A stretch of DNA of 64,000 nucleotides, taken from contig NZ_NHSQ01000090.1 of the NCBI RefSeq assembly GCF_016653465.1, forward strand, positions 1-64,000, in the 5' to 3' direction. Of the stretch, positions 9,044 to 14,722 are shown in pieces (position 1 is the first letter of the stretch; every line of letters begins with the position of its first letter). Source of the stretch: Thiocystis minor. Its GTDB lineage: Bacteria > Pseudomonadota > Gammaproteobacteria > Chromatiales > Chromatiaceae. The position numbers and the translations under genes are program-made. A model generated the notes under the pieces. The model was not told where the DNA came from. It saw only the letters and a program-made list of their open reading frames with translations, and did not search any database.

Positions 9044-10675
9044 TCATTCCGCGCCGAGCGCCGGTGCATCCGTCAGACCCTCGATCTCCCCGGCCAGTCG
9101 GCGGGCCTCGTCCTCCAGTGCCACGATCTCGGCGCGAATCGCCTCGGCCTGCTGTTCGGCGATGGTCTCCAGCAGCTCCGGGCGCTCCTGGCTGAGTCGA
9201 TGGAGTTCATGGTCGCTGCTCTCGCGTAGTTGCGCCAGTTCCTCCAGCGTGGCGAGGAGACGCACCTGGAGGCTCTCATAGAGCTGCCGGAGCTTGGTCA
9301 GATCCGCGTCGTCGGCGAAGTCCAGACCGCCCAGACCCTGACGGGCGAGGAAAGCGTTGGGGTCGTGGGCGATCTCGCGCAGCCGCGCGATGTCGCCCTG
9401 ATCGTGGGCCTGATTGATCATCTGCATCAGGCGCTCGTGGATCGCCTGCCGTTCGGGGTCGTGAGTGTAGCGGTCGGGATGATAGAGCCGCACCAGTGAG
9501 CGAAACAGCGTCTTGAGTTCGTGCGCGTCGGCCTCGCTCAGTTCGCGCCGCGCGCTGGCTTCGGCGGCGGCCTCGGCATAGTCGCGCTCGGTCTCGGCGC
9601 GCGCCCGTTCATAGTCCGACCCGAGCGCCTCGGCGGCCTCCTCGCCCTCGACCAGCAGGAGGTCGAGATAGCGGCGCCGGTAGTTGATCGCCAGCCGCAA
9701 CCGGTCGCGTCGTTCGTAGTGCGGACGCAGGAGCGAAAACAGCCGCGACTGGATCACGGCCACCGCCTGATGCTCGCGCGCGGACTCCGCCTCCAGATCC
9801 GCCAGCCGGGTGCGCGCAGCCTCGATCAGTCGGTTCAGCGTCGCGCGTTCGGGGTCGCGGTACAGCACCAGACCCTCGCTATCCCCTGTCGCGGTCGCGA
9901 TGACCAGGGTGGGCGCGTCGGCTGACTCGCGCCCGGCGTCGACCGCGAGCCGTTCCAGATACCAGCGGCCCATCTCGGCGCTGCGCGGATTGCTGGACCC
10001 GGCGAGCCATTCCAGCCAGGCGCGCAGCGCCGTGTCATGGCGCGCGTCCAGGAAGGGACGGCCCTTGTACTTGCCAAAGGCGAAACGGGACGGAAACCAG
10101 GTCTCGGCGGCATAGACGCGCCATGCATCCCAACTCGCCAGGCCGCGCGCCTCGGCCAGTGGGAATAAGACCTGCCGCAGCAGATCGACCACGGTTTCGA
10201 CATCGCCCAGCGCGGTATGAGCACTGTGCGCGGGCAGACGGTAATACTGGCGCAGGGTCTGGAGCTTGCAGTTGCCCGCCGGGATCGGATCGAGCAGCCG
10301 TTGCGCCAGACGCAGGGCGCAGAACCCGGCCCGTCCGATGGGCGCACGCCCCAGACGCTGCCATTCCGGGCGCAACACCTGATCGAGATCGTAGCTCAGA
10401 TTGTAGGTCACCAGCGGGCGTTCGCCCGCATAGTCCGCGAAGGCGTCATAGACTGCCAGCGGCGGCTCGCCGTTGCGCTCCAGGATCTCGCGGGTATTGC
10501 CATTGACCCGCGCCGTCTCGGGCGGGATCGCGACCCCATGATCGAGCAGACGCACGAAGGGCGGACCTTCCGGCTCCCAGCCGCGCATCCGCTGTGCGGC
10601 CAGTTCGACCACGTAGATTGGTTCCTTGAGGCCGGTGGTTTCGGTGTCGAGGAGGAGCCAGTGGGTGTGGGGCAT
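9044..10675 (-). CDS. DEDDh exonuclease fused to a J-domain-like region
   Basis: The 543-residue protein begins with a DnaQ-like 3'-5' exonuclease domain (about 1-180): DTETTG supplies Asp and Glu, YNLSYDLDQV the second Asp, and HTALGDVETVVD the catalytic His and final Asp. The middle (about 190-250) holds FGKYKGRPF, a DUF3820-like short motif seen in exonuclease partners. A long charged helical region follows, then a J-domain-like segment (about 415-465) with LVRLYHPDRYTHDPERQA, including the HPD tripeptide. The end is coiled coil. The ATG at 10675 lies 3 bases after the stop of the LRR gene, so the two are almost certainly co-transcribed. A nucleic-acid nuclease recruiting an Hsp70 is inference. 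Confidence 0.78.
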   Translation of the reverse strand: MPHTHWLLLDTETTGLKEPIYVVELAAQRMRGWEPEGPPFVRLLDHGVAIPPETARVNGNTREILERNGEPPLAVYDAFADYAGERPLVTYNLSYDLDQVLRPEWQRLGRAPIGRAGFCALRLAQRLLDPIPAGNCKLQTLRQYYRLPAHSAHTALGDVETVVDLLRQVLFPLAEARGLASWDAWRVYAAETWFPSRFAFGKYKGRPFLDARHDTALRAWLEWLAGSSNPRSAEMGRWYLERLAVDAGRESADAPTLVIATATGDSEGLVLYRDPERATLNRLIEAARTRLADLEAESAREHQAVAVIQSRLFSLLRPHYERRDRLRLAINYRRRYLDLLLVEGEEAAEALGSDYERARAETERDYAEAAAEASARRELSEADAHELKTLFRSLVRLYHPDRYTHDPERQAIHERLMQMINQAHDQGDIARLREIAHDPNAFLARQGLGGLDFADDADLTKLRQLYESLQVRLLATLEELAQLRESSDHELHRLSQERPELLETIAEQQAEAIRAEIVALEDEARRLAGEIEGLTDAPALGAE

Positions 10676-10678
10676 GGG

Positions 10679-11728
10679 TTATCGCCTCTGGACCTTGAGA
10701 TTGGCAGGGGTATTGAGGAGGCGGACAGACTGATCGCATTCGAGCCTGGTCAGCCCCGGCACAGGCGAGAGATCCAGCGCGGCGAGTTGATTGCGCCAGC
10801 AAAAGAGCGTAGTCAGCCCCGGCACAGGCGAGAGATCCAGCGCGGTGAGTTGATTGCCCCCGCAGCCGAGCGTGGTCAGCCCCGGCACTGGCGAAAGATC
10901 CAGCGCGGTGAGTTGATTGCCCCCGCAGCCGAGCGTGGTCAGCCCCGGTACTGGCGAAAGATCCAGCATGGTGAGTTGATTGCGCCAGCAAAAGAGCGTG
11001 GTCAGCCCCGGCACTGGCGAGAGATCCAGCGCGGTGAGTTGATTGCCCTCGCAGTTGAGCGTGGTCAGCCCCGGCACTGACGAGAGATCCAGCGTGGTGA
11101 ATTGCTTGTGACCGCAATCAAGTTTGGTCAGCGCCTGCCCCGGCGAGAGATCCAGCGCGGTGAGTTGGTTGTCACCGCAATCCAGTTTGATCAGTTCAGG
11201 CGTTCGAGAGAGATCAATGTTTGTTATCTCAAAATTACGACAGACGAGGATCTGAAGCCAGGCCAGATCAGGTCGCAGTGTCTGCCTGGAATCGGACCGA
11301 GTGCCTGTCAATCCAAGCGAGCGGATCAGCAGGCCTTCCTGCCAATGCCTCGGCACAAGGGGCAGGCGCTCGAAGTCCCATGTAAGGCTGCGGATAGTGC
11401 CGTCTTCGATCACCAGGGTGATAGGATCAAAGAAATCCCAAACTGCAGGCTCCAACCTGGAATCCGCCAACTGCTTCAACACCCATTCCGGCGCCCTCCC
11501 CAGAGCCGCCGCCCAATCCAGAATCTGCCGATAATCCGGCTCGCGCAGCAGATATTCCTCGATGCGATACCGCGCCGCGCTGAGTCCCTGCGATTCGGCC
11601 CGCGCCAGCACATCGCGGGCCATGCGGGCGATGACCGGATTGACGCGCCGCCCGGTTTCGGCGGGGTCCGTGCCAGGACGCGGCACGATGGCGTTCGATC
11701 TGGAATCCTGATGCTCGTCTGAAAACAT
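10679..11728 (-). CDS. Leucine-rich repeat protein
   Basis: The 349-residue protein has an N-terminal helical region (about 1-130) that I do not recognise and a C-terminal array of about eight 21-residue leucine-rich repeats, pattern LTALDLSPVPGLTTLxCxxNQ. No signal peptide or membrane segment is visible, so it should be cytoplasmic. LRR arrays of this kind bind proteins. The gene is first in a two-gene unit with the exonuclease/J-domain gene, only 3 bases apart. The repeat units are nearly identical at DNA level, which indicates recent duplication or gene conversion. Function is unknown; a partner or specificity subunit for the nuclease is a guess. Confidence 0.8.
   Translation of the reverse strand: MFSDEHQDSRSNAIVPRPGTDPAETGRRVNPVIARMARDVLARAESQGLSAARYRIEEYLLREPDYRQILDWAAALGRAPEWVLKQLADSRLEPAVWDFFDPITLVIEDGTIRSLTWDFERLPLVPRHWQEGLLIRSLGLTGTRSDSRQTLRPDLAWLQILVCRNFEITNIDLSRTPELIKLDCGDNQLTALDLSPGQALTKLDCGHKQFTTLDLSSVPGLTTLNCEGNQLTALDLSPVPGLTTLFCWRNQLTMLDLSPVPGLTTLGCGGNQLTALDLSPVPGLTTLGCGGNQLTALDLSPVPGLTTLFCWRNQLAALDLSPVPGLTRLECDQSVRLLNTPANLKVQRR
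10736..11227. repeat. 63-base tandem repeats inside the LRR gene
   Basis: About seven to eight direct 63-base units encode the leucine-rich repeats. Each contains CAGCCCCGGCAC(T/A)GGCGA and ATCCAGCGCGGTGAGTTGATT on the plus strand. Two variant types, encoding FCWRNQ and GCGGNQ loops, occur in the order F-G-G-F within the inner units. The outer units are more diverged. Confidence 0.85.
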
Positions 11729-12128
11729 CGGCGGTAGTCTCCCTGTGGCCTGGATGGCGCAAGCCTATACCACCGTTCGCCCTGGACGCTAGATTCTACG
11801 ACGACGCTCGCTCCACCGTTGGCGATGATCCTGCTTTGGCGTTGCATCCGGAGGCTACACAGCAGGTCGATATTGATCGAAGGTAACGCCCGACCTTGTC
11901 TCTTGCGGCCCCTGGCGGTTAGCTCTCGTCACTCGATTCGCTACGTCCGCTGAGATGATCCATCCACTGCTTCAAGTCGGCAGATGGCCGAGCGGCTTCG
12001 TGTCCATAGCCTTCGTCATGGGATTCACATACACTTCGCTGGGGGATGCGGCAGTCGACAATGCGCTGCACCCGCTCCATCACGCGAAGGATCCGCAACC
12101 TTCTCACTCACGAGCACGGAGTGATTCA
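11729..12128. other. Divergent intergenic region
   Basis: These 400 bases lie between the start of the LRR gene (minus) and the start of the binding-protein gene (plus), so both promoters should be here. Short open frames are present, including 62 codons on the minus strand at 11919-12107, but none has a recognisable motif or ribosome site. I could not pick promoter elements with confidence. Confidence 0.4.
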
Positions 12129-13031
12129 ATGAATCCGAGATTCCGCACGATCCCGAGACAACTCATCCGCCTGCCGATCATCCTGGGCTTGGCCTTTGGA
12201 CTCTTCACGACCCTGGCCGCTTCGGCGGCGGAGCCCGCGGGCGACCAGGATACCCTCGTCTTTGGTACCCTCCCATTGACCAAGCCGACCAAGCTGCTCG
12301 AACAGTACAAGGGCCTGATCGACTACTACGAAAAGACCCTGGGACAACCGATCAAATTCGAGATTGGCAAGGACTACGCGGATGCCATCGCCAAGTTCCA
12401 ATCCGGACATTACGACTTCGGGCTTCTCGGCCCCTCGCCTTACGTCTTCGCCACGCAGACCAGCCCCTCCGGCAAGGACAATTTCAAGCTCATCGGCACC
12501 CTGGAAACCGACGGCAAACCCTACTACAGCGCGGTCATCGTTGCCGCCATCGGTAACGACGGCATCAACTCGCTGGCCGATCTCAAGGGCAAGCGTTTCG
12601 CCTTCGGTTCGCGTCTCTCGACCCTTGCCTGCTATCTCCCCGCCGACATGCTGATTCAGGCCGGCGTGATGGATGAACTCGCCGGCTTCGAATTCATCGA
12701 TAAGCACGACGCCGTGGCGAACGCCGTCAGTCTTGGACACTTCGACGCCGGCGGGATGCAGGAGAGTCTCTACAAAAAGGTGGCCGACAAAGTCAAGCTG
12801 GTCCAAAAATCGGAGCCGGTCTGGGACTTCATGATCCTCGCTCACAAGGACATGGATCCCGCGCTTTTCGAGCGGATCAAGACCGCCACGCTTGAGCTCA
12901 AGGATCCCGCGGTGCTCGAAAAGATCAAGCCCAAGGTCACCGGCTTCGTCGCAACCGACGACAGCAATTACGACAACCTCCGCGAGATCATGAAGCGCGT
13001 GGACGCCAAGCTGGGCGAGCCAGCCCTCTGA
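12129..13031 (+). CDS. PhnD-like periplasmic substrate-binding protein
   Basis: The 300-residue protein has a signal peptide (basic [15 protein letters not shown], hydrophobic core to about residue 34, cleavage near ASAAEP) and a phosphate/phosphite/phosphonate-type binding fold: [18 protein letters not shown] at the mature N-terminus, [10 protein letters not shown], and [17 protein letters not shown], the usual ligand-loop region. The ATG at 12129 places the signal peptide correctly. No ABC permease or cognate ATPase of the PhnCE type is adjacent. The next gene, 68 bases downstream, is a chemoreceptor, so the protein may feed a sensory receptor and not a transporter. The ligand is unknown. 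Confidence 0.82.
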
Positions 13032-13099
13032 CTCTCTTCCGAATGGATTCCGTCCCTGACGGGATCCATCGGACCTTCGCGCGGCAGGGCAAATCATCG

Positions 13100-14722
13100 A
13101 TGACGATCCTTCACGCAGGCAGTTTGACCTTCCGCTTTCTGGCCTCGATCCTGGGTGTCACCGTGCTTGCCCTGGCGCTTGCGATGGTTCTCCTGCATGT
13201 CGAAGTCAGCCGCCTGAGCGATCAGCAGACGAGCCTTGCGCGCGAGGCGCTGACGGTCGAGCGACAGCAGGCGGAGACACTTCAGAGCCGCGCATTGAAC
13301 ACAAAGGCCGAACTGCTCGGCAAGTTCATGGCGCGCACCGCTCCGGATCTCATCCTCACCTACGATCTCGATCTGCTCGCCCGCTACCAGGCGGAGGCAT
13401 CGTCCGACGCCGATATCGCCTACGCGGTCTATCTGGACCCACAGGGCGAGCCGATGGTCGACGTCGAGACCCGGATGACGGAGGCCATCGAAACCCGCTA
13501 CCCTGTCGAGTCACACGGCAAGCTGCTGGGGCATGTCCTGATCGGGCTGGACCCTCGCAATCTCTTCGTCTCCAATGAGGTTGCCGCCGAGCGGATCGAT
13601 ACCGCCATCGCCCACGCGCAGCAGTTGGGTAACACGGGCCAGGCGCGCTTCCTCGCGATCCTGGGCATCGGCTTCATCGGGATGCTCCTGCTGCTGGCGG
13701 TGCTGTTCCGCTTCATGTTCAGGCGACAGGTGATCCGCCCGCTCAAGGACACCACGGCCCTCATTCGCGAGCTCGCCCTTGGCGGGGGCGACCTGAGCCG
13801 TCGGCTGCCGATCGCCGAAGACAACGAGATTGCCCATCTGCGACTCGCCGTCAACGCCTTTATGGAGAATCTGCAGGGCATGGTCCGGATCATCGTCCAG
13901 GATATCCTGGAGTTGTCCCGGGTCGCCGCCGCGCTGCGGGAGTCGGCGACCATCCTGGTTGATGACATGAACACGGCCCACGCGCATACCAGCCAGGTCA
14001 CCACGGGCGTCGATCAGCTGCTTTCCACGATCAAACAGGTCGCCCACAGCACCCTGCAGGCTGCCGCGGCGGCCAGGGTCGGGGAGGACAAAGCGAACGA
14101 CGGCAAAACGATTGTCGCCGGGGCGGTGGCGGATATTCAGTCGCTCTCCAGCGAGGTGCAAGCCGCTTCGGCCGTGATCGCCCGACTGGAGGAGGCGAGC
14201 ACGCGGATTGGCGCTGTTCTCGACGTCATCGTCGCCATTTCCAATCAGACCAACCTGCTTGCGCTGAACGCCGCGATCGAGGCGGCGCGGGCGGGAGAGC
14301 ATGGTCGGGGATTCGCTGTCGTCGCCGACGAGGTTCGCTCGCTTGCCGTCCGCACCCAGGAATCCACGCTCGAAGTGCGCGACATCGTTGATCAGGTGAC
14401 TAACGGAACCAGAAACGCGATTGATGCCATGGAACTCAGCCAGTCCCAGGCCGGCGCCAGCGTCGCTCAATCCGAGAAGGCCAGCGCCGCTCTTGAGGCC
14501 ATTCTGCAGGCAGTGCACACCATCAATGCAATGAGTAAAGAGATAGCCGCCGTGGCCGACGAGCAGGCCAGGGTTGCCGAGGTGCTCAGTCAACAAATCG
14601 TCAGCATCGACGATCTGAGTGAAAAAACCGCCGAACGCGCGCAGATCACGCATCAGACCAGTCGCGAGCTAACCGACCTCGCGGACAGTCTCCATACCCT
14701 GGTGGGTCGCTTTAGCGTCTGA
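13100..14722 (+). CDS. Methyl-accepting chemotaxis protein
   Basis: The 540-residue chemoreceptor has a first membrane segment (about 12-33), a periplasmic domain of roughly 150 residues with a single-Cache-like look ([17 protein letters not shown]), a second membrane segment ([20 protein letters not shown]), a HAMP domain, and a cytoplasmic signalling helix bundle with the CheA/CheW hairpin tip ([19 protein letters not shown], then [15 protein letters not shown]). The ATG at 13100 is chosen because it directly precedes the membrane anchor; the ribosome site is weak. Its position behind the PhnD-like gene suggests a binding-protein/receptor pair. The following ABC ATPase gene begins 2 bases after its stop. 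Confidence 0.87.

Follow-up and report, generated by a model that had tools for sequence, protein, structure and literature searches.

A DEDDh exonuclease-J protein paired with exchangeable partner proteins, a candidate receptor-effector system in Thiocystis minor and other bacteria

Introduction

J proteins supply Hsp70 chaperones with substrates, and the part that binds the substrate usually lies in the same protein. Among described and predicted bacterial conflict systems, bNACHT25 requires host DnaJ for phage detection (PMC12169576), and the predicted GAP1-N2 GTPase systems contain Hsp70 and DnaJ-fused proteins (PMC7159879). Here we describe a pair of genes in a 64,000-nucleotide stretch of the genome of Thiocystis minor, a member of the Chromatiaceae (contig NZ_NHSQ01000090.1, positions 1 to 64,000, forward strand; hereafter the window), which encode a leucine-rich-repeat (LRR) protein and an exonuclease fused to a J domain. 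With the GAP1-N2 systems the pair has in common a J domain or Hsp70 in a predicted conflict system; it differs in that neither a GTPase nor a dedicated Hsp70 gene was seen with it, the nuclease is fused to the J domain, and the putative receptor is hypervariable. As in bNACHT and Avs/STAND proteins, repeat-domain sensing would be coupled to an effector, but in this case the proposed receptor is separate and exchangeable and the J domain lies within the effector protein. Scans with Pfam and PADLOC found no NACHT or STAND NTPase in either protein.

The DEDDh fold and catalytic residues are shared with Cas2-DEDDh and DnaQ-like DEDDh exonucleases, which are associated with CRISPR adaptation and proofreading. 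Unlike Cas2-DEDDh, the window nuclease contains no Cas2 domain, is fused to a coiled-coil/J/coiled-coil (CC-J-CC) module and is paired with a repeat protein as candidate receptor; no cas genes were recognized in the neighborhoods by eye or with scans for selected families. Free-standing CC-J-CC proteins annotated as "DnaJ family molecular chaperone" are homologous to the C-terminal half of the nuclease but lack the exonuclease, and in Enterobacterales they also lack an adjacent repeat partner. Internalin-type LRR proteins (InlJ) are nearest to the LRR protein in fold and sequence, including a cysteine-type repeat, whereas the window protein has no secretion or cell-wall signals (by eye), is operonic with a nuclease and has a different N-terminal domain.

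No PADLOC system model was matched by both genes. The LRR protein had no match of any kind, and the nuclease matched only a generic CRISPR-associated DEDDh model and, weakly, LmuB. We found no description in the literature of an exonuclease and J domain combined with LRR, Sel1 or FGE proteins. As far as we have searched, the pair belongs to no existing system and its architecture is new, and the function that we give it is put forward as a hypothesis.

Results

Layout of the gene pair

In the window, the open reading frames of the LRR partner and the exonuclease-J protein lie on the minus strand, 3 bp apart, as a preliminary description of this DNA had placed them. The LRR gene is transcribed first and the nuclease gene follows. 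Their parts are as follows.

10679..11728, minus strand: LRR partner gene, 349 aa, proposed receptor/sensor (LRR_4, E 3.6e-23)
11591..11692, minus strand: N-terminal segment AIVPRPGTDPAETGRRVNPVIARMARDVLARA, residues 13-46 of the LRR partner, proposed docking element (HMM, model)
11258..11590, minus strand: small alpha/beta domain, residues 47-157 of the LRR partner, between helix and repeats (alignment, model)
10754..11257, minus strand: LRR array, 8 units of 21 aa, residues 158-325 of the LRR partner (63-bp tandem repeat)
9044..10675, minus strand: exonuclease-J gene, 543 aa, proposed effector/adaptor (RNase_T and DnaJ matches)
10121..10666, minus strand: DEDDh 3'-5' exonuclease domain, residues 4-185 (RNase_T; PDB 8fyc, 8fy9)
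10052..10084, minus strand: ExoX-like C-terminal motif, residues 198-208, FAFGKYKGRPF region (PF20600, E 0.36, weak)
9071..9853, minus strand: CC-J-CC module, residues 275-535, about 260 aa (model helices; J-protein homology)
9401..9535, minus strand: J domain core, helix II - HPD loop - helix III, residues 381-425 (Pfam, model, family profile)
9473..9481, minus strand: HPD motif, residues 399-401 (invariant among homologues; read in the DNA)

The nuclease protein combines a DEDDh exonuclease with a J module

Pfam assigns residues 8-165 to RNase_T (E 2.6e-11), and the best PDB sequence matches are the Cas2-DEDDh/DEDDh entries 8fyc and 8fy9 (E 5e-12 to 2e-11). The catalytic residues D10, E12, D96, H153 and D158 are invariant in ten nuclease representatives; by the D-E-D-H-D residues together with the RNase_T domain, these proteins are DEDDh exonucleases, with the exception of the copy in genome G102 (L045:7296-8867). 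That copy, which lies inside an Hma/DISARM island, has lost two catalytic acidic residues (D96E and D158H) and, judged from these substitutions, may be inactive as a nuclease. The ExoX-like motif is mostly kept across the family. Two candidates, L039 and L040, were rejected as family members, as the exonuclease domain alone was matched. Exonuclease-only relatives with neither J module nor partner (L079:5968-6633, about 48% identical, and L112-L116) occur in the class to which genome G544 belongs.

For the window protein, the DnaJ match (E 4.6e-4) falls under the Pfam cut-off for a single sequence. A family profile recovers solved J domains with E-values of 1.9e-4 to 2e-3 and an alignment spanning helix II, the HPD loop and helix III, so that the nuclease family has the helix II - HPD - helix III arrangement of an Hsp40 even with Pfam alone below threshold. 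H399, P400 and D401 are invariant in all homologues, and the alignment of the C-terminal half (residues 265-525) with the free-standing J proteins covers 241 columns (hhalign 98.8%, E 4.5e-17). The segment called J-like in the preliminary description is thus homologous both to solved J domains and to a family of J proteins. Structure prediction agreed in part. In the AlphaFold model, helices 381-397 and 407-425 flank the HPD loop with moderate confidence, but the nuclease half of the protein lies largely below pLDDT 50, and Foldseek with this poor model gave no match at E 0.001 or better and none to a J domain. Because of the invariant HPD, the matches to solved J domains and the long homology to J proteins, the identification of the C-terminal half as a CC-J-CC module is firm at the level of the family. 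This module is proposed to recruit DnaK.

The LRR partner has a conserved scaffold and a variable face

The LRR protein is modeled well (mean pLDDT 86), with an amphipathic helix at residues 31-46 followed by the small alpha/beta domain (pLDDT mostly above 70) and the repeats, which are encoded by 7.1 copies of the 63-bp unit. The nearest solved folds found by Foldseek are InlJ and SDS22. An orthologue of this partner (L032) is 61% identical. Across 137 LRR units taken from 11 partner genes, entropy reaches 3.1-3.6 bits at positions 3, 5, 7, 8 and 10, which are the exposed positions of a canonical LRR, and stays at or below 2.3 bits at all others. Within single arrays, the ratio of pN at exposed positions to pS of the scaffold among units is 1.89 (bootstrap over arrays, 95% 1.45-2.47), and the scaffold itself is constrained (pN/pS 0.40). 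DNA identity between the window and the congener G549 is 92-94% in the syntenic flanks, 85% in the nuclease-LRR stretch and about 75% in the LRR part. These comparisons make diversifying selection on the exposed LRR positions likely. In genome G069, a 778-aa LRR protein (L049:3583-5919) repeats the N-terminal domain internally and is apparently a fusion of two tandem partner genes.

The pair is patchily distributed and its partner is exchanged

The nuclease was found in 9 of 210 genomes of the order and in 1 of 398 genomes across a sample of the phylum, the one being that of the window. The pair is also present as single cases in Binatota and in another bacterial class, and on two IMG/VR contigs; plasmid and phage (INPHARED) collections held no full-length nuclease relatives. 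An adjacent partner is encoded at about 13 of the 15 testable nuclease loci, a count that takes in L052 and three G069 copies and treats the window and its G549 orthologue as two, and the remaining two loci retain partner remnants. Directly upstream of the partnerless first copy in G028 lies an LRR C-cap, DASVRLINPPANLKR, and in Binatia L076 a broken partner start lies 2.9 kb downstream of the nuclease. An FGE gene in L076 (1923-4100) was rejected as a partner; its product looks secreted and has a metalloprotease-like region. Because the same gene pair is conserved together in other genomes, a chance juxtaposition of open reading frames is ruled out.

Most partners are LRR proteins. Two have Sel1 repeats (L037 and L044, the latter with the second G028 copy; Sel1 E 6.6e-80 and 1.1e-76), and one, on the L052 phage contig, has an FGE-sulfatase fold (E 8e-32). 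The LRR gene is upstream of the nuclease in Chromatiaceae and L053; in Binatota L036 it is downstream and is followed by a second partner, and in Allochromatium warmingii one nuclease is flanked by LRR genes on both sides. Across the loci, the two genes are separated by small gaps or overlap by 4 bp. In addition, fragments of the nuclease gene adjoin LRR genes in G139, G026 and G069, which indicates turnover of the locus by duplication and decay.

The partners were also compared at their N-termini. An HMM trained on the N-termini of the Chromatiaceae LRR partners alone was scanned against 3484 open reading frames of the loci, and among those other than LRR partners the nuclease-adjacent Sel1 proteins of L037 (E 0.0048) and L044 (E 0.14) ranked first and second. 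On E-value alone, the evidence for an N-terminal segment common to LRR and Sel1 partners is weak in L044 and suggestive in L037; what persuades is the ranking. A second-round HMM independently located the partner start in L076 (E 3e-7). This segment may be what docks on the nuclease. Docking is unsupported in L052, because its FGE partner was not matched by the partner N-terminal HMMs; a similarity of its N-terminus to the shared segment, noted by eye, was set aside as it had no HMM support.

Genomic surroundings include defense islands and a phage cargo slot

The G102 pair is flanked by HmaA/B/C at one end and by DISARM genes (DrmB, DrmA, DrmMI, DrmD) at the other. Next to the pair in two Binatota genomes are HEC-01 ATPase/DUF4276 genes (in L036 by similarity to L077). 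The second G028 copy has genes for a GajB-like UvrD helicase, a PLD_Helicase and a phage integrase nearby, and L053 was seen by eye to carry a repressor together with a serine recombinase. In L052, a 3.6-kb cassette of GNAT, FGE and nuclease genes directly follows the gene for the major capsid protein in a tailed phage; the same slot is empty (98 bp) in the L129 phage, which has an identical capsid protein, and sister phages carry AbiEi/AbiEii (L157), SoFic (L130) or other cassettes there. The defense role raised as speculation in the preliminary description gains from these several defense-island and phage-cargo contexts, but six loci, including the window, have no recognized defense gene in the stretches examined (around the window, G549, G026, G139, the first G028 copy and G544).

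In the phages L129-L182 this slot is bounded by the major capsid gene and the head gene that follows it. Many relatives have it empty, and its contents elsewhere include AbiE, SoFic, Sel1-trypsin, DuOB/PP2C/kinase-FGE and J-protein cassettes, which makes it a good place to search for new defense genes. Beside the pair in the window, a segment with genes for a PhnD-like binding protein and a chemotaxis receptor (11793-14720) is missing from the matching place in G549. The six other genomes of the genus that were searched all lack the PhnD-like flank gene, so that no clean empty site could be read within the genus.

Free-standing CC-J-CC proteins form a second lineage in phages

In L133, a close relative of the L052 phage, the same slot holds a free-standing CC-J-CC protein (DnaJ E 2e-6; E 2e-10 to the profile of the nuclease C-terminus), whose gene overlaps that of a 511-aa LRR-like repeat protein. 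Partners in the phage lineage are of two types.

L133:8825-11351, L187:11084-12674, L218:1000-3436: phage CC-J-CC cassettes with an LRR-like partner
L210:3023-4847, L214:2739-4554, L215:1511-4243, L216:4001-6733: phage CC-J-CC cassettes with an FGE-fold partner

The LRR-like (L187, L218) and FGE-fold (L210-L216) partners have a common N-terminus (35-38% identity, "GGLIRRMD..L...R...EI"); homology of this N-terminus to that of the nuclease partners was unsupported (hhalign 9%). L215 and L216 encode two FGE partners in tandem, and the single partner in L214 matches the first of these identically up to about column 50 and the second identically from there on (about column 51), the pattern that recombination of receptors behind a fixed N-terminus would produce. 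Variable residues of the phage FGE partners cluster C-terminally, as in DGR targets. On the short phage contigs we saw no reverse transcriptase; the sole match of a crude motif search for one was the L133 LRR-like protein. Directly upstream of the J-LRR pair in L133 is a gene for a 521-aa protein with no Pfam or PADLOC family (L133:7263-8828), possibly an alternative effector. Chromosomal CC-J-CC relatives in Enterobacterales stand alone in ordinary neighborhoods. The preliminary description, which paired a nuclease that may recruit Hsp70 with a fast-changing binding protein, is supported in part; it missed that the LRR protein can be replaced by Sel1 or FGE proteins and that the J module also exists separately with exchangeable partners.

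Discussion

In our reading, which we hold with modest confidence, the two genes form a receptor-effector system, most likely a conflict module directed against phages or mobile elements; that it has some role in defense or conflict is probable. The partner would be the receptor, with its fixed N-terminal segment docked on the coiled coils of the nuclease and its exchangeable C-terminal part (hypervariable LRR, Sel1, or FGE/C-type-lectin-like fold) binding a target that is probably a phage protein. The adaptor would be the CC-J-CC module, a J protein with a separate and swappable client-binding polypeptide, which brings DnaK (Hsp70) to the bound target. DnaK may then remodel the target, and through target binding and DnaK action the DEDDh 3'-5' exonuclease would be recruited to nearby DNA or switched on there. 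In a guard variant, loss of DnaK caused by a phage would free the nuclease. We infer both nucleic-acid cleavage by the nuclease and the nature of the target, and the specific sequence of docking, DnaK and nuclease is tentative, a little short of an even chance. The receptor-effector reading is favored by the pairing, the exchange and diversification of partners, the birth and death of copies, the patchy distribution, the defense and phage contexts, the second phage lineage of CC-J-CC proteins with exchangeable partners and the precedent of bNACHT25 for J proteins in phage sensing. Counted against it are the phage J-plus-FGE copies that lie in a tail-gene region, where a role in tail assembly is possible, the catalytic loss in the G102 copy, which has the best defense context, the unmatched FGE partner of L052 and the six loci lacking a recognized defense gene.

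Hsp70 normally gains its specificity from a J protein together with a substrate binder, and the pair could accordingly serve protein quality control or remodeling, in which the receptor picks a host or phage complex, the J module delivers DnaK and the exonuclease clears or proofreads DNA there, in repair or replication rather than defense. The solitary Enterobacterales relatives in ordinary neighborhoods fit this explanation, but patchiness, decay, duplication, a diversifying face and defense or phage contexts are unlike housekeeping, and we consider it unlikely. The small adjacent or overlapping operon, sometimes on mobile elements, with copies that are born and lost, also resembles a toxin-antitoxin pair, with the LRR protein restraining a toxic nuclease whose release upon infection or loss of the partner leads to growth arrest. 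This is quite improbable, since a hypervariable and exchangeable partner would be unusual for an antitoxin and the partnerless G028 nuclease retains an open frame, unexpected for a freely toxic enzyme.

Two loci are on IMG/VR contigs, one of them within the structural operon of a tailed phage, as would suit counter-defense or superinfection cargo that a phage or element directs at other elements or host systems. Most copies are chromosomal, however, with several among defense genes, and the presence of AbiE at that position in a sister phage speaks for defense cargo, which leaves this explanation a slim prospect. That the genes are chance or loosely linked neighbors with no joint function is scarcely credible; their order does vary, with the partner upstream, downstream or on both sides, but they pair across distant taxa with small gaps or 4-bp overlaps, a common partner N-terminus and remnants where one is lost.

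If the receptor-effector reading is right, the pair would represent a new type of receptor in prokaryotic immunity, a separate, exchangeable and diversifying binder that steers Hsp70 and a nuclease. The use of chaperones in bacterial infection sensing would become directly testable, and the pair would offer a natural scaffold for swapping binding modules on one fixed partner. More speculatively, and rather doubtful at present, bacteria and phages may share a general "programmable Hsp70" immune architecture, with a CC-J adaptor, a fixed docking site, interchangeable and fast-diversifying receptors (LRR, Sel1, FGE/C-type-lectin fold), DnaK and an effector such as the DEDDh nuclease. Such an architecture, if true, would be the prokaryotic equivalent of receptor repertoires built on a shared signaling stalk. 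Even if the function proves to be another, a conserved CC-J-CC module with swappable sensors is, as far as we have searched, an undescribed architecture.
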